Assembly (NCBI RefSeq): GCF_038003525.1
Contig: NZ_JBBOPI010000001.1
Span: 1,727,001-1,791,000, forward strand
Source: Solibacillus sp. FSL H8-0538
GTDB taxonomy: Bacteria > Bacillota > Bacilli > Bacillales_A > Planococcaceae
Direction: 5' to 3'
DNA: 64,000 bases
Shown here: positions 19,838-59,548 of the stretch, piece by piece
Position numbering within the stretch: position 1 is the first letter of the stretch
Layout of the letters: each line of letters opens with the position of its first letter
Position numbers and translations under genes: made by a program
Notes under the pieces: model-generated
What the model saw: only the letters and a program-made list of their open reading frames with translations
The model's database searches: none
Told to the model about the DNA's origin: nothing

Positions 19838-20151
19838 GGGCACTGAAAAAGTTGATTTCTACTGAAAATTCTAATATGTATATGCTAAATAGTGATAGGT
19901 CATTGGTGCTCTGGCACTCGCTTTCCGCGGGCGGTGGCGAGCCTCCTCGGGCCAACACGATGTTGGTCACAAAGGCGTTGCCACAGGACGTGGCGTTCTT
20001 AGCCTTCGTTCCTAAAAGCTCCTGCGGGGTCTCATCTGTACTGCTTTTCCCGCAGGAGTCTCGCGCCGCCGCACCAATGCTTTCTGAATAAAATAAAGCA
20101 GAAGCATAAAATTACTATGAAAAAATACTGTTTCGGGGTTTTTCAGTGCCC
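19838..20151. mobile_element. MITE-like element with 13-bp TIRs
   Basis: 314 bp bounded by GGGCACTGAAAAA (19838-19850) and its exact inverse TTTTTCAGTGCCC (20139-20151). Outside lie direct repeats GCATTGAAC at 19827-19835 and 20154-20162, a 9-bp target-duplication-like pair two bases from each end. It encodes no transposase. The GC-rich interior holds the repeat core also found at 36980 and 59345, plus a 10-bp hairpin CTCCTGCGGG/CCCGCAGGAG. It was probably moved by a transposase acting in trans. Confidence 0.75.
19950..20007 (+). repeat. GC-rich dispersed repeat, copy 1 (core)
   Basis: The core contains two hairpins, CCAACA-CGA-TGTTGG and GCCAC-AGGAC-GTGGC. It is nearly identical to 36982-37039 (+) and 59433-59489 (-). 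Confidence 0.8.
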
Positions 20152-28136: not shown

Positions 28137-28160
28137 TTTATTTTACTTGAATAATATAAA

Positions 28161-28505
28161 TCGTTGATGAGGTTAAAGGTACTAGAGCATTGTATTTACC
28201 AGAGAGTCGGTATTGCTGGAAGCCGATGATACAACTAGTACCGACATCCCCTCGGAGTGAGCTATTAAACGCATTCTTTGCTATTAGATAGTTCCGGGCA
28301 TAGTCGAAGTGCTCGTTATTAATGAATAGTGTATTACGCTTTGTTGCACGCTAAATTTTCTGTGTATTTGGAATTTAGCGAAAGTGAAATAATTTCCACT
28401 ATTCGCGAGGTAGCTTTTAGCTATGAACAAGGGTGGTACCATGAAAAGTCTTTTTCATCCCTACGCAAGGTTTATTTTGCGTGCGGAGAAAAGGGCTTTT
28501 TGTTT
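28161..28505 (+). ncRNA. T-box leader (Ile-type specifier) upstream of ilvB
   Basis: Stem I is closed by GGTACTAG/CTAGTACC and ends CTCGGAGTGAGC. The specifier loop reads CCGAC-ATC-C, the same geometry as CGAAA-GGC-A in the glyQS leader, so the codon is ATC (Ile). The T-box core is AAGGGTGGTACC (28429-28440). Its TGGT pairs with an ACCA tRNA end, which fits the tRNA-Ile discriminator A. The antiterminator pairs ATGAAAAG with CTTTTTCAT and competes with a terminator stem (28444-28505). Confidence 0.88.
28444..28505 (+). terminator. T-box-controlled terminator
   Basis: TACGCAA/TTGCGTG and an outer AAAAGTCTTTTTC/GAGAAAAGGGCTTTTT stem end in a T run. It forms when charged tRNA-Ile fails to stabilise the antiterminator. 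Confidence 0.75.
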
Positions 28506-36979: not shown

Positions 36980-37127
36980 GAGGCCAACACGATGTTGGTC
37001 ACAAAGGCGTTGCCACAGGACGTGGCGTACTTAGCCTTTGTACCTTTGTTACCCCTAAGCGGCTCATCGAACGCCCCCTGGAAAGCGTCCAGCCAGAACG
37101 GAAATCAACCCCAAGTTACGGTGCTTA
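36980..37127 (+). repeat. GC-rich dispersed repeat, copy 2
   Basis: The core (36982-37039) is nearly identical to copy 1. It continues with an arm shared only with copy 3, including a CTGGA-AAGCG-TCCAG hairpin and a stretch ending in GGAAATCAACCCCAAGTTA. Confidence 0.8.
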
Positions 37128-49534: not shown

Positions 49535-50821
49535 TTATGCCATTTTCTCATTCAGCTCTTCTTGCTGCAGGGAATCTGGCTTTGCTACTTGATCTAGTAC
49601 TTTTCGGTTTATGCACATATTTATTACAGGAATAAGAAGTAAACTGCTGCCAATAAATAAATATTCAGCAGGTACGAAATCAAATAATAAACCGTATACA
49701 ACCATTCCAATCGGCATCAAGCCCATTGCCATCATTTCTAACAAGCCAATAACTCGGCCACGGTACGCTTCGTCTACAGCTGTTTGGAACAGTACGGAAA
49801 TCGGTGTGTTTGTCATGACGCCAAATGCCCCAAACAGCGTCATCGCTAATGTGTAATAGACGAGGTTTGTCATATACGTCATGGATATAAATAATGGTAT
49901 GGCGAAAACAGAGATTAGTACAGACAACGTTAATATAGAGCGCTTCGCAAATAACAGGGGATTTTTCACATTTGAACGTGTGGCAAAGTAGATAGAAGCG
50001 ACCAGCATACCAACCGCACCGGCTCCTTCAATAAACCCAATATGTTGCGGTGCCATTTTTAATGTTTCTAGTAATATAAAATTGCCACCAACACTAATAC
50101 AACTAAAGAATAAGTTCACCCAAAGTGCCGTTAGTAAAATACTTTTTACAATTGGCTTCGTTTTTACATAGCGCCAGCCTTCCTTCATGCTGTCGATCAT
50201 TCTTTCTTTCTGTTGCACAGTAGCTTCTTTTTTGAATAAGTTAAAATTCATCGTTGCTTCAAGTGCTGTTGTGATAAGTAGCGCGATAATATTAACAACT
50301 AAAAACATAGACATTGAAACAAAGCCAAATAGCATACCACCTACAATAGGTCCACCTATCCCAGCTATAGAATAGGACAATTGGTTAAAGCTCATCGCTT
50401 TTTGTATTCGTTCCGTGTCTACTAAATTTGAAACTGATGCGGTGAAGGCAATGCCTGAAAATGTTGCAAACACTGTATAAATGAGCGTCGTACAATAAAT
50501 CGCAGGAACAGATAAGCCGAACAGATCGGTATACACGAGCAGGCCGCTAATCGAAAGCGCTTCACCAAGCTGTCCAGCGATGACAAGCACTTTTCTTGGA
50601 ATACGATCACCAATTACGCCTGCAATCGGTGATAAAATCGTGCGTGGTACAATACTAAAAATCATATTTGCTGCAAAGCTAAAAGCAGATCCAGTCATCG
50701 ATAAAATGTACATACTCATCCCGAACGCATACACATTGGAACCAAGCGTGCCGACCATTTTACTAATTAAAAATGTATACAAATGATACGTAGCTTTTTT
50801 GAGTTGCATGGCATCTGTCAA
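49535..50821 (-). CDS. MFS transporter, multidrug-type
   Basis: 428 residues with about 12 helices. GVIGDRIPRKVLVIAGQLGEA is the loop 2-3 signature, and SPIAG and GGPIVGGMLFG are further MFS_3-type markers. TTG at 50821, five bases after AGGGGTGG, is the best start; GTG at 50830 overlaps it. It is divergent from an XRE-TPR regulator, with one copy of the shared operator 18 bases upstream of the TTG. This suggests regulated drug or peptide efflux. Confidence 0.82.
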   Translation of the reverse strand: MTDAMQLKKATYHLYTFLISKMVGTLGSNVYAFGMSMYILSMTGSAFSFAANMIFSIVPRTILSPIAGVIGDRIPRKVLVIAGQLGEALSISGLLVYTDLFGLSVPAIYCTTLIYTVFATFSGIAFTASVSNLVDTERIQKAMSFNQLSYSIAGIGGPIVGGMLFGFVSMSMFLVVNIIALLITTALEATMNFNLFKKEATVQQKERMIDSMKEGWRYVKTKPIVKSILLTALWVNLFFSCISVGGNFILLETLKMAPQHIGFIEGAGAVGMLVASIYFATRSNVKNPLLFAKRSILTLSVLISVFAIPLFISMTYMTNLVYYTLAMTLFGAFGVMTNTPISVLFQTAVDEAYRGRVIGLLEMMAMGLMPIGMVVYGLLFDFVPAEYLFIGSSLLLIPVINMCINRKVLDQVAKPDSLQQEELNEKMA

Positions 50822-50838
50822 ATTGTCCACCCCTAAAT

Positions 50839-54274: not shown

Positions 54275-54315
54275 ATAGGTGATACATGAAAATTTGGTGA
54301 GAAGGAAGGAGGTTG

Positions 54316-54825
54316 GTGGAGGATTTAAGTGAAGTCTACAAATCCTATGCAGATGAAGTAAAGCGGTTCCTTATTTGTTTAACGTCAAATGTAGATTTAG
54401 CTGAAGAACTGACCCAAGAGACTTTTTATCAGGCGGTAAAGTCTATTCACAGGTACAACGGTGAATACAAGATGTCTGTTTGGTTATGTCAGATTGCAAA
54501 ACATACATATTATAACTATTTAAAAAAGGTAAAAAATGCTGACCATCTTAGTGTAGAAAATCTGATGCAAAAGGGAGTGGATATTCCATCTTCTAAGGAG
54601 CAGCCTGACGTTGAGATGGTTAGACGCAATACGCTTATTTCAATACATAAAGAAATACATCTGTTAAAAGAACCTTACCGCGAAATATTTTTACTAAGAA
54701 CGTCCATTCAGCTCAGCTTTAAAGAGATTGGTGAAGTATTTGATAAAAGTGAAAACTGGGCGCGGGTATCCTATTACCGTGCCAAATTGAAACTAGCAGA
54801 AAGGATTGATGGGAATGAATTGTAA
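54316..54825 (+). CDS. ECF-type RNA polymerase sigma factor
   Basis: 169 residues. Region 2 is YKSYADEVKRFLICLTSNVDLAEELTQETFYQA then VWLCQIAKHTYYNYLKK. Region 4 is LKEPYREIFLLRTSIQLSFKEIGEVFDKSENWARVSYYRAK. The start is uncertain: GTG at 54316 is six bases after AAGGAAGG, and TTG at 54313 is also possible. It overlaps the anti-sigma gene by 11 bases. Targets unknown; probably an envelope or antibiotic stress regulon. Confidence 0.87.
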   Translation: MEDLSEVYKSYADEVKRFLICLTSNVDLAEELTQETFYQAVKSIHRYNGEYKMSVWLCQIAKHTYYNYLKKVKNADHLSVENLMQKGVDIPSSKEQPDVEMVRRNTLISIHKEIHLLKEPYREIFLLRTSIQLSFKEIGEVFDKSENWARVSYYRAKLKLAERIDGNEL

Positions 54826-55450
54826 TATTATTAAAGATTTATTGCCATCTTATATTGATGAGATTTGTAGTAAAGATACTGTAAAAATGGTTGAAGAGCA
54901 TTTACAGTATTGTGAAAAATGTAAGGCGTGTTTTAATTCCATGCAGCAGGAAGGGGCTTATGTAGGGCAGTTGCCAGAAGAAGTAGCGAAAGCCATTACA
55001 CCGTTTAAAAAAATTAATAAAAAGCGCCGCATCCAAGTTATTAAGGCCGTTGTCATCACCTTTTTAACGACCTTTTTTATCACGGTTGTAGCTGATTCAG
55101 TTTATCAAAATGTAGGAGTTGTGAATCAATTCTTTTCCCCAATGGATAGAGGCATTGTCGATGTAGGTTCAGCTGATGAGTGGGAAAGAATCACCTTTAG
55201 TGACAACAATTTTCTGGAAAAAGATCATCTGATATTCGACAGCATTTTTTGGGAAAAGGAAATAACTAATCACGCGAATAACGAACAGGATGTCATGATA
55301 AGGGTAAAAGATGAAAATGGCAATATTATAGTGGACGAATTCCAAATTTTACATGGCACTAGCGTGAAATTGGACAGTTTGAAGAGAAATGAAAAATATT
55401 TTATTGAAATAAAAGCGCCACAAGGGAGATTTTTTATTAATGCGACATGA
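54815..55450 (+). CDS. zinc-finger anti-sigma factor, membrane-spanning
   Basis: 211 residues. The N-terminal zf-HC2-like anti-sigma domain has CNIIKDLLPSYIDEIC and HLQYCEKC (His-x3-Cys-x2-Cys), followed by one membrane helix (VVITFLTTFFITVVADSV) and an extracellular beta-rich domain of about 110 residues. The ATG at 54815 is nine bases after AAAGGA. It would hold the sigma factor inactive at the membrane until a signal acts on the outer domain. Confidence 0.82.
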   Translation: MNCNIIKDLLPSYIDEICSKDTVKMVEEHLQYCEKCKACFNSMQQEGAYVGQLPEEVAKAITPFKKINKKRRIQVIKAVVITFLTTFFITVVADSVYQNVGVVNQFFSPMDRGIVDVGSADEWERITFSDNNFLEKDHLIFDSIFWEKEITNHANNEQDVMIRVKDENGNIIVDEFQILHGTSVKLDSLKRNEKYFIEIKAPQGRFFINAT

Positions 55451-55755: not shown

Positions 55756-56241
55756 GTAAATGTGATAGCGGATTTTTTGATAGTATGGTGCTTTACATGA
55801 AGATTCGCATCTCGAATATTAAGTACTTTAGTTAGTAATCTGTGAGGGGTTTTGTGAAAAATATATGGTTAATTGCAATTATATTATGGGATTAAATAGG
55901 GTCTTTACCAAAACATGTCCTTTACTTTAAAAGAAAGTGAACTACTTTATAGGCACATGGAACGGAAAGCGACCGCCTGGAGTGGAATGTGCTGTCAAAT
56001 TCAGATTTTGGTGTAGAGTCATTAAATATATGGATTAGTTTCTAAAGATTTTTTCTCAACTCTAGTGAGAAGTTTATTTGCGTTATTAGGATTTATAGAA
56101 GATATAAAGCGAGATGATTCAAGTAATGAACTAATCATATTTCTAATGGCTGGTCCCTTTTTCTCATTGCGATTGTTCAATAGAGCAGTCGCTTCTTCTA
56201 CTAAGGGGGAAGGTTAGTAAAGAAGTGATTGACGAAATATT
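55756..56241. other. 486-bp gap without a gene
   Basis: Only fragments are seen. GGAACGGAAAGCGACCGCC near 55959 resembles arms of GC-rich dispersed repeats. No frame with a start signal is credible. Confidence 0.4.
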
Positions 56242-56270
56242 TTACAAAAATTTCGAATGTTTGTATTATA
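56242..56270 (+). promoter_or_regulatory. promoter of the T-box/MFS unit
   Basis: TTTACA (56242-56247), 17-bp spacer, TATTAT (56265-56270). RNA start near 56277. Confidence 0.6.
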
Positions 56271-56287
56271 TAAATAATACACAAATG

Positions 56288-56569
56288 CGATGAAGAGAAG
56301 AGTAAATAAAATCATTTCTTGCCAGAGAGCTCCCACTTGGTGAAAGGGAGTAAGAAAGATTTATTGAAACAAGCCTCTGAGTAGCATATCGGAACCAGTA
56401 TGGGGGGATGGTATGACGGGAGCTCCCGTTATAGAGCTAAGGTATAAAAATACATTGTACCTGATAAGATTAGTATGGCAACATATTAATAAAATGGGGT
56501 GGCACCACGATTAAAAATCTCGTCCCCAAGACTTTAGTTTCTGTAGAGTCTTGGGGAAGGGATTTTTTT
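56288..56569 (+). ncRNA. T-box leader (probable Gln specifier) upstream of an MFS transporter
   Basis: The AGTA turn and AATAAAATC/GATTTATT stem define the specifier loop. It reads TGAAA-CAA-GC, aligned with CGAAA-GGC-A of the glyQS leader, giving CAA (Gln); ACA or AAC by a shifted reading. The apical stem is CTCCC/GGGAG. The T-box core is GGGGTGGCACCACG (56496-56509). Its TGGC pairs with a GCCA tRNA end, that is discriminator G, as in tRNA-Gln and tRNA-Asn and against Thr. Antiterminator GGGG/CCCC plus ACGA/TCGT competes with a terminator stem. Confidence 0.85.
56517..56569 (+). terminator. T-box-controlled terminator
   Basis: CCCCAAGACT (56524-56533) pairs with AGTCTTGGGG (56547-56556), followed by GGGATTTTTTT. 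Confidence 0.88.
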
Positions 56570-56636
56570 ATTTATTTCAATCATTATTTAACCTTATTTA
56601 AAGTTTTATTTTTAATATTGAAAGGGGGATAAAGTG

Positions 56637-57890
56637 ATGAATTTAAAGAAAGTGATTGTGTCTTGGAAATACCCATCAATTTTATTAGTAGGTATTGGAT
56701 TTTCAAATATCGGTGAATGGATTTATTTTCTTGCTCTTAATTTAGTCGTTTACGATATAACTGGCTCACCTCTTGCAGTATCTATTTTGTATATAATAAA
56801 ATCCTTTGCTACTTTATGTACTAATTTTTGGGCAGGAAGTATGATTGATCGTTTGAATAAACGAAAATTAATGGTTTATCTTGATATTTTCAGAGCTATG
56901 CTTATTGCTTTATTACCTTTCGTTTCTTCTGTAATCCTGATTTACATAGTTGTATTTATAATAAATATGGCAAGTTCTATATTTGGACCAACATCAATGA
57001 CATATATTTCAAAATTAATTCCACCCGAACAAAGAAAACAATTCAATTCTATTTATAGTTTAGTTACATCAGGTTCTTTTTTTATTGGTCCAGCAATTGC
57101 AGGGTTATTATTTTTAATTGGGACCCCGATTTTAGCAATTTATATAAATGCCATGGCGTTATTTATTTCAGGGATAATTACATTAGTAATGCCTGATATA
57201 GAGAAAGAATCAATCAGTTTCTCAAAGAATAACAAATTGACTTTGAAACTAATTAAAAGGGATTGGTCTGTAGTTATTGAGTATAGTCGCCAATATAGTT
57301 ATATAATGATGATTTATTTTTTATTTAGTTTTGTGATGGTGATTATGGCGAGTGCCGTAGATTCGCTTGAAACAGCATTTGCAAAAGAGGTTCTTTTATT
57401 ATCAGATAGTGAATATGGGCTTTTGGTTACTATTGCAGGTGCAGGGATTTTGCTTGGAGCATTAGTTAATACATTTATAGTAAAACAAATAGGAATATCG
57501 GTGTTAATTGGTTTTGGTACTGTGCTCGTATCTACAGGCTATTTAGTTTATGCTTTTTCAAGTTCATTTTTTGTCGCTGCAATTGGTTTCCTATTCCTAG
57601 CTTTTTTTATTGCTTTTGCAAATACTGGTTTTCTAACTTTTTATCAAAACAATATTCCAGTCGAAATAATGGGGAGAATTGGGAGTGTCTATAATCTTAT
57701 GCAAGCATTGCTTGTAATAATAGCAACTGGCACTATGGGTGTTATGGCGCAGATTTTATCTATTCAGTTTGTTGTCATTATAGGTGTATTAGTTATGATG
57801 ATGATTTCAATTATTTTAAGTATATTCTGCTTTAACCCTTCAAAAAGTCAACTCTATCTGACCGAATCCATTGGGACTAAGAAAATCTAA
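56637..57890 (+). CDS. MFS transporter, efflux type, under T-box control
   Basis: 417 residues with about 12 helices. It has the MFS_3 layout of macrolide and other drug exporters: NIGEWIYFLALNLVVYDITGS, GSMIDRLNKRKLMVYLDIFRA (loop 2-3 signature), TYISKLIPPEQRKQFNSI and NIPVEIMGRIGSVYNL. The ATG at 56637 is eight bases after GGGGG. Only about 65 bases separate it from the T-box terminator, so it is the controlled gene, and it is alone. Substrate unknown; it could export an aminoacyl-tRNA-pathway inhibitor or an amino acid. Confidence 0.82.
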   Translation: MNLKKVIVSWKYPSILLVGIGFSNIGEWIYFLALNLVVYDITGSPLAVSILYIIKSFATLCTNFWAGSMIDRLNKRKLMVYLDIFRAMLIALLPFVSSVILIYIVVFIINMASSIFGPTSMTYISKLIPPEQRKQFNSIYSLVTSGSFFIGPAIAGLLFLIGTPILAIYINAMALFISGIITLVMPDIEKESISFSKNNKLTLKLIKRDWSVVIEYSRQYSYIMMIYFLFSFVMVIMASAVDSLETAFAKEVLLLSDSEYGLLVTIAGAGILLGALVNTFIVKQIGISVLIGFGTVLVSTGYLVYAFSSSFFVAAIGFLFLAFFIAFANTGFLTFYQNNIPVEIMGRIGSVYNLMQALLVIIATGTMGVMAQILSIQFVVIIGVLVMMMISIILSIFCFNPSKSQLYLTESIGTKKI

Positions 57891-59344: not shown

Positions 59345-59548
59345 TCAACACCATAACTTGGGGTTGATTTCCGTTCTGGCTGGACGCTTTCCTGGGGGCG
59401 TTCGATGAGCCGCTTCGGGAAATAAAGGAACAAAGGCTAAGTACGCCACGTCCTGTGGCAACGCCTTTGTGACCAACATCGTGTTGGCCACAGTCCAGGG
59501 TCTCATCTAGAACGCTAATCCCCTCGGAGTCGCCAGCCGCCACTCCAA
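59345..59548 (-). repeat. GC-rich dispersed repeat, copy 3 (longest)
   Basis: On the minus strand it starts GGAGTGGCGGCTGGCGACTC, then carries the common core (59433-59489), then the arm shared with copy 2 including GCGTCCAGCCAGAACGG. Around it (59167-59344 and 59549-59650) I see no gene. Confidence 0.8.

Follow-up and report, generated by a model that had tools for sequence, protein, structure and literature searches.

What would a bacterium gain by placing a single transporter gene under the control of a tRNA sensor? In a 64,000-nucleotide stretch of the Solibacillus sp. FSL H8-0538 genome (hereafter the window), a T-box leader is followed by one MFS gene, and the gene after the MFS gene lies on the opposite strand. 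The original prediction, made from the letters of this DNA, had described a complete T-box with a glutamine specifier and a good promoter ahead of a lone MFS_3-type gene of an exporter family. The leader is a full-length match to the Rfam T-box model RF00230 (model positions 1-219 of 219), and its 132.2 bits (E 3.8e-29) stand well above the gathering score of 93. The host genome contains 22 T-box matches, 16 of them over the cut-off, and the MFS leader ranks sixth by score. The covariance search for which the original prediction had called therefore agrees with it, and every part that it had listed is present: specifier, core, antiterminator and terminator (Table 1).

Table 1. Features of the T-box leader and the MFS gene, in window coordinates
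Feature	Position	Strand	Basis
Likely sigma-70-type promoter TTTACA-17-TATTAT	56241-56269	+	10/12 consensus; position just 5′ of the leader
T-box leader, stem I to antiterminator	56281-56530	+	RF00230 full-length match
Specifier codon CAA (Gln)	56370-56372	+	Register from the same genome's other T-boxes; CAA in 71/80 named homologues
Antiterminator	56495-56528	+	Pairing kept across 38 distinct leaders
T-box core GGTGGCACC	56498-56506	+	
UGGC of the T-box bulge	56500-56503	+	Pairs with GCCA-3′ of tRNA-Gln
Intrinsic terminator with T-run	about 56513-56569	+	Fold z-score and pairing across homologues
MFS transporter, MFS_1/MFS_3 (DHA3-like)	56634 (GTG) or 56637 (ATG) to 57890	+	Pfam

The switch itself is well conserved. 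The RNA of 56488-56573 folds with a z-score of −6.6, as good a fold being found in none of 200 shuffles. When 39 homologous leaders are aligned as 38 distinct rows, 99.7% of cells are paired in the antiterminator, with changes on both sides in three pairs, and 97.0% are paired in the terminator, with changes on both sides in four; both pairings collapse when the partners are slid by one to three columns. Mutually exclusive antiterminator and terminator structures are found ahead of the MFS gene, and the specifier and the bulge are together complementary to one host tRNA, tRNA-Gln. We conclude that the leader is a complete T-box of the transcription-attenuating type, one that would respond to tRNA in vivo. 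The promoter fares less well. Its consensus match stands, but this AT-rich region has no more promoter-like sites than shuffles do, and we therefore regard TTTACA-17-TATTAT as a plausible promoter of the leader on account of its position.

The window also holds a second T-box at 28155-28465 (+), which is 311 nt long, scores 74.6 bits (below the Rfam cut-off) and carries the specifier ATC (Ile) before an ilvB-like gene. Three copies of Bacillaceae-1 RNA (RF01690) occur in it as well, at 59421-59487 (+), 36984-37050 (-) and 19952-20018 (-), and two of the three are very alike.

Which tRNA does the leader read? The specifier register was taken from the genome's other T-boxes, in which the three specifier bases are followed by nine bases, mostly ending in GAG. 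For example, TGG is followed by ACTTCTGAG in trpS, GTA by GCCTGGGAG in valS, TCC by GCCCTGGAG in serS, CTC by GCCTTGGAG in leuS and TGC by ACCTTTGAG in cysE; ileS, alaS and others were used too, and the T-boxes of pheS, tyrS and a few other genes are one base longer or less regular. Two trpE genes and leuA were confirmed downstream of T-boxes of this genome, with Trp and Leu specifiers as expected. In the same register the MFS leader reads CAA followed by GCCTCTGAG. The two host tRNA-Gln genes are identical, with the anticodon UUG, the discriminator G and the end ...CCCCAG-CCA, and this discriminator pairs with the C of the leader's UGGC. Because the register, the anticodon and discriminator of tRNA-Gln and the presence of like T-boxes on GlnRS genes (see below) all agree, CAA, for glutamine, is confirmed as the predicted specifier, as had been proposed from the codon and the TGGC core.

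A frame one base later would make the specifier AAG or AAA, that is Lys, and the 2008 survey discussed below may have read the B. anthracis leader in this way. Indeed, the base after CAA is G in 61 and A in 10 of 71 homologous leaders, which makes every +1 reading a Lys codon. In the frame shared by the T-boxes of trpS, valS, serS, leuS, ileS, alaS, cysE and others, the specifier is nevertheless CAA, and in the 71 leaders the C of CAA is kept whereas the base before it varies (G 27, C 19, A 19, T 6). Likewise, UGGC cannot pair with the discriminator of the host tRNA-Lys, which is A, and the like T-box sits on glnS genes. Register, discriminator base and glnS targets thus rule against a Lys specifier, which we regard as very improbable.

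Two other features of the host's T-boxes deserve mention in their own right. Two trpE-like genes each have their own Trp T-box (L004 and L007; G000:C1:2303327 and 513662), and a further T-box (L014 1501-1710; G000:C1:1566674-1566883) precedes a gene whose product, a membrane protein of 279 aa, matches no NCBIfam model.

The pairing of leader and gene extends well beyond this genome. Among the 80 closest named homologues of the MFS protein (54-76% identity; Bacillaceae, Caryophanaceae, Paenibacillaceae and others, from many genera), the genes of 71 are preceded by a CAA T-box that has both core and T-run, and in these leaders the bulge base is always C or U and in no case A or G. A T-box also lies directly upstream of 27 of the 29 MFS homologues found in relatives, 23 of them over the Rfam cut-off and four by sequence; the two without one are L044 and L048. 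Since the search pattern required CAA, the nine named homologues that did not match it were read by eye. In three no leader was seen, and in one stem I has been lost; the Anoxybacillus rupiensis leader (L116) has stem I replaced by a transposon-like stretch and keeps its antiterminator, and the four Peribacillus leaders (L088, L090, L091 and L102) are absent or decayed to little beyond the terminator. No other specifier codon appears among these nine lost or damaged leaders. On a tree of 97 family members and an outgroup, the state of the leader changes 8 times, against 19.3 times in shuffles. We read the association of leader and MFS gene as probably old, with later losses, and some lineages do retain the MFS gene without a T-box. 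The homologue survey and specifier alignment thus favour a conserved pairing, and we found none of the three outcomes that the original prediction had named as contrary to it (no T-box match, a specifier conserved as another codon, or orthologues lacking the leader).

The gene itself is patchily distributed: at E 1e-30, 64 of the 151 genomes sampled have it. It also has no conserved neighbours. Each neighbour family is confined to 6 or fewer of 80 loci, which rules out an operon or a conserved neighbourhood. An ECF sigma factor (SigM-like) and a zf-HC2 anti-sigma candidate are encoded just upstream of the T-box, at 54313-55450 (+), and such a pair also precedes the MFS gene on a Priestia plasmid. 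A link between this pair and the MFS gene was considered and rejected, as there is one distant match among 85 loci.

What could a leader of this kind sense? Because neither the host genome nor any genome sampled from its family yielded a GlnRS over the cut-off, and gatB is present in the host, GltX most likely charges tRNA-Gln with Glu, which is then amidated; this is the transamidation route that had been assumed for this locus. It had also been assumed that the leader would sense a block in either GltX or GatCAB, and of these the GltX step stands. T-boxes reject tRNA bearing any aminoacyl group, glycine included (PMC7583486). Glu-tRNA-Gln should for this reason count as charged, and the leader should therefore report on GltX and the supply of glutamate and not on GatCAB; we therefore reject sensing of a GatCAB block on the strength of this published steric effect. 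In Paenibacilli the same Gln sensor would report on GlnRS, and the common signal is, as far as sequence can tell, uncharged tRNA-Gln.

The genes that share this sensor are few in kind. A first Gln T-box pattern matched 38 places in 151 genomes and a second, applied to 399 Bacilli genomes, matched 52 places in 51 of them; downstream of the 52 places are 41 genes of the MFS family, 11 glutaminyl-tRNA synthetase genes and nothing else. One match of the first pattern (G141:C14:1567088) lacks T-box features, was missed by the second pattern and was judged to be chance. The synthetase genes were identified by a GlnRS match over the cut-off in one case and by a per-genome GlnRS survey in the others. 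In all 11 genomes where glnS has such a T-box, there are exactly two GlnRS. Paenibacillus eucommiae has both a T-box MFS gene and a T-box second GlnRS (GlnRS2) and makes a twelfth GlnRS pair, and three other Paenibacillus genomes with a T-box MFS gene have a single GlnRS each. The T-box core occurs on every second GlnRS copy, and no CAA T-box was found on the primary copies. Likeness to the window leader is 0.69-0.79 for ten of the 11 GlnRS2 T-boxes (0.56 for the exception) and 0.65-0.88 for the other MFS T-boxes, compared with 0.55-0.62 for the genome's own other T-boxes. Because the GlnRS2 leaders are as like the window leader as the MFS leaders are, a single Gln T-box lineage is seen, by leader likeness, to serve two gene types.

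These targets bear on whether the pump answers one kind of insult or many. It could serve against stress or many drugs in general and be tied to a tRNA-Gln sensor since many toxic states lower charging, with no specific inhibitor involved; MFS_3 pumps are often broad, and the lineages that lost the leader yet kept the gene show that the pump can be of use on its own. However, Gln is the only specifier seen on this MFS family, and the same T-box is otherwise found solely on GlnRS, which points to tRNA-Gln charging itself. We think a general pump quite unlikely.

GlnRS2 differs from the primary enzyme in its active site. The two GlnRS of one genome are 52-59% identical, and the GlnRS2 proteins are on average 68% identical among themselves. 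The HIGH signature is replaced in all 12 GlnRS2, by HIGS or in one case HLGS, whereas it is HIGH in 27 of 27 readable GlnRS without a Gln T-box (one primary sequence, G336, was in the wrong frame and was left out of this count). Similarly, eleven further columns that are near-invariant in primary GlnRS are changed in all GlnRS2, some of them in or beside the KMSKS loop. All 12 GlnRS2 thus combine a second copy beside a canonical one, an altered signature motif and an inducible leader. The class Ib bacterial GluRS has a small fourth signature residue, and the signature of the host GltX is HIGG. Since GluRS itself has such a residue, HIGS in GlnRS2 is, judged from the motif, compatible with activity and by itself no mark of resistance. 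The loci with a HIGS GlnRS2 include L278, L284 and L294, a separate finding that merits a study of its own.

All five plasmid-borne MFS homologues in PLSDB keep the CAA T-box, and patchy presence together with plasmid copies is, from gene distribution, the pattern of an accessory trait. A thrS gene that bears two tandem T-boxes (L287 1713-2205, -) is found on pN447-3.3, a plasmid of Priestia megaterium, some 2.5 kb away from the MFS gene with the Gln T-box, and the two are possibly a plasmid set against aminoacylation inhibitors.

In which direction does the MFS protein transport? It exceeds the gathering scores of MFS_1 (PF07690; 118.6 bits against 33.4) and MFS_3 (PF05977; 73.7 against 27), as the expected MFS_3-type family should. 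It misses the cut-off of TIGR00900 (2A0121, H+ antiporter protein; 129.6 against 319.6 bits) and falls below that of every NCBIfam transporter model that it matched, the best-scoring named relatives being mostly exporters (EntS, Tet(V) and MefA). The predicted structure has the MFS fold (mean pLDDT 85.7), and a structure search with it matches NorA, LmrP, VMAT, VGLUT2, ferroportin and LacY, exporters and importers alike. A PDB sequence search and a PADLOC search gave no match. We consider the protein most likely to be an efflux pump. A second MFS_3-type transporter of the window, at 49535-50830 (-), is nearer to MefA/EntS-like exporters than this protein is, and no T-box is reported there.

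Two kinds of amino-acid transport have to be weighed against efflux of a toxic compound. The original prediction had offered an amino-acid exporter as the plainer alternative; we do not find it really plainer, as a cell that fails to charge its tRNA would only be worse off for losing Gln or Glu. The better rival is an importer. The MFS protein could be an ordinary nutrient transporter that imports glutamine, glutamate or a Gln-containing compound, its uptake being induced by the T-box when charging falls. Amino-acid transporters are commonly under T-box control, a second GlnRS might likewise be useful to a starved cell, and Wels et al. 2008 took a T-box MFS of B. anthracis for an amino-acid permease (PMC2494555). 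Against import stand the mostly exporting relatives just named and the needs of the hosts: charging requires Glu in organisms with GatCAB and Gln in those with GlnRS, and as the T-box MFS occurs in organisms of either kind, no single nutrient would suit them all. Neither the active-site change of GlnRS2 nor plasmid carriage would be expected from nutrition. We therefore consider import unlikely.

We propose that the T-box, by way of its CAA specifier and UGGC bulge, monitors whether tRNA-Gln is charged. Uncharged tRNA-Gln, which in the host would accumulate when GltX is inhibited or short of Glu, would favour the antiterminator and allow transcription of the MFS gene, and tRNA-Gln with any aminoacyl group would let the terminator form. 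The pump would then keep down the intracellular level of a natural compound that inhibits tRNA-Gln charging. Paenibacillaceae-type bacteria would use this T-box lineage to drive a HIGH-altered second GlnRS, the other classical defence of this kind. Cells usually meet an aminoacylation inhibitor in one of two ways, with an altered second synthetase or with an efflux-type pump, and for this reason we lean, with confidence a little better than even, towards the T-box MFS as an inducible defence directed at an inhibitor of tRNA-Gln charging, a defence in which export, resistance and the inhibitor itself are predicted from sequence. The earlier suggestion that the pump may expel an inhibitor of the Gln-tRNA pathway thus gains indirect support from the HIGH-altered GlnRS2 under the same T-box and loses the part that concerned a GatCAB block.

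Several observations count against this defence: the missed TIGR00900 cut-off, fold matches in both directions of transport, the patchy distribution of the MFS gene, the lineages without a T-box and the HIGG signature of GluRS. In addition, the part of an aminoacyl-tRNA synthetase inhibitor review that covers these enzymes lists no natural bacterial GluRS or GlnRS inhibitor, only synthetic microcin C derivatives for GluRS (PMC7916415), and this lack would also count against it. The same part describes the GluRS and GlnRS intermediates as alike enough for one compound to block both (PMC7916415). More tentatively, and with confidence somewhat short of even, we suggest that the Gln T-box regulon of pump and altered GlnRS is an inducible, partly plasmid-borne defence against an undiscovered natural inhibitor of class Ib enzymes (GltX and GlnRS), with the HIGS GlnRS2 as the second case of HIGH-motif resistance after IleRS2. 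The regulon would then name the attacked step, tRNA-Gln charging, ahead of any knowledge of the attacker, and the leader would be a ready reporter for finding natural products against GluRS or GlnRS. A curious T-box target becomes a testable prediction, and an older Lys annotation is put in question.

Finally, how does this locus compare with known systems? Like the RF00230 T-boxes of B. subtilis tyrS and glyQ, the window leader has a stem I with specifier, a bulge, an antiterminator and a competing terminator; unlike them, it has a Gln specifier and drives an efflux-type MFS gene. A two-codon T-box in the transamidation operon of Clostridium acetobutylicum, reportedly described by Saad and colleagues in 2013, is said to control the transamidation genes themselves; it too is tied to the route of an amide-amino-acid tRNA, and the window T-box drives a transporter instead. 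The MFS protein resembles the DHA3/MFS_3 drug exporters related to MefA, EntS and Tet(V) in exceeding the MFS_3 and MFS_1 cut-offs and in its MFS fold, and it differs from them in lying below all matched NCBIfam cut-offs and in belonging to a family of its own that is tied to the Gln T-box. Gln specifiers are among the least common in TBDB (PMC7778990), and a Gln T-box with an efflux MFS or a second GlnRS is undescribed in the open literature that we searched, with the proviso that older T-box surveys may mention one. The nearest precedent is in Wels et al. 2008, where, in the parts of the survey considered here, a T-box MFS of B. anthracis, one of 69, is given as Lys in Table 1, a Lys permease is proposed for BH0807 of B. 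halodurans, and degenerate boxes are noted in related MFS systems (PMC2494555). By description, to which this comparison is confined, the B. anthracis system shares with ours a T-box before an MFS gene and the degenerate boxes, which recall those of Peribacillus; the wide conservation, the Gln register and the link to a second GlnRS go beyond the same parts of that survey (PMC2494555). The closest parallel to GlnRS2 is IleRS2, in which a swapped HXGH motif confers mupirocin hyper-resistance and which its authors describe as the exclusive adopter of this change (PMC10485003). GlnRS2 is likewise a second class I synthetase with an altered HIGH signature that coexists with a canonical copy; it differs in carrying HIGS under a Gln T-box and in being known from its sequence, where IleRS2 has mupirocin.
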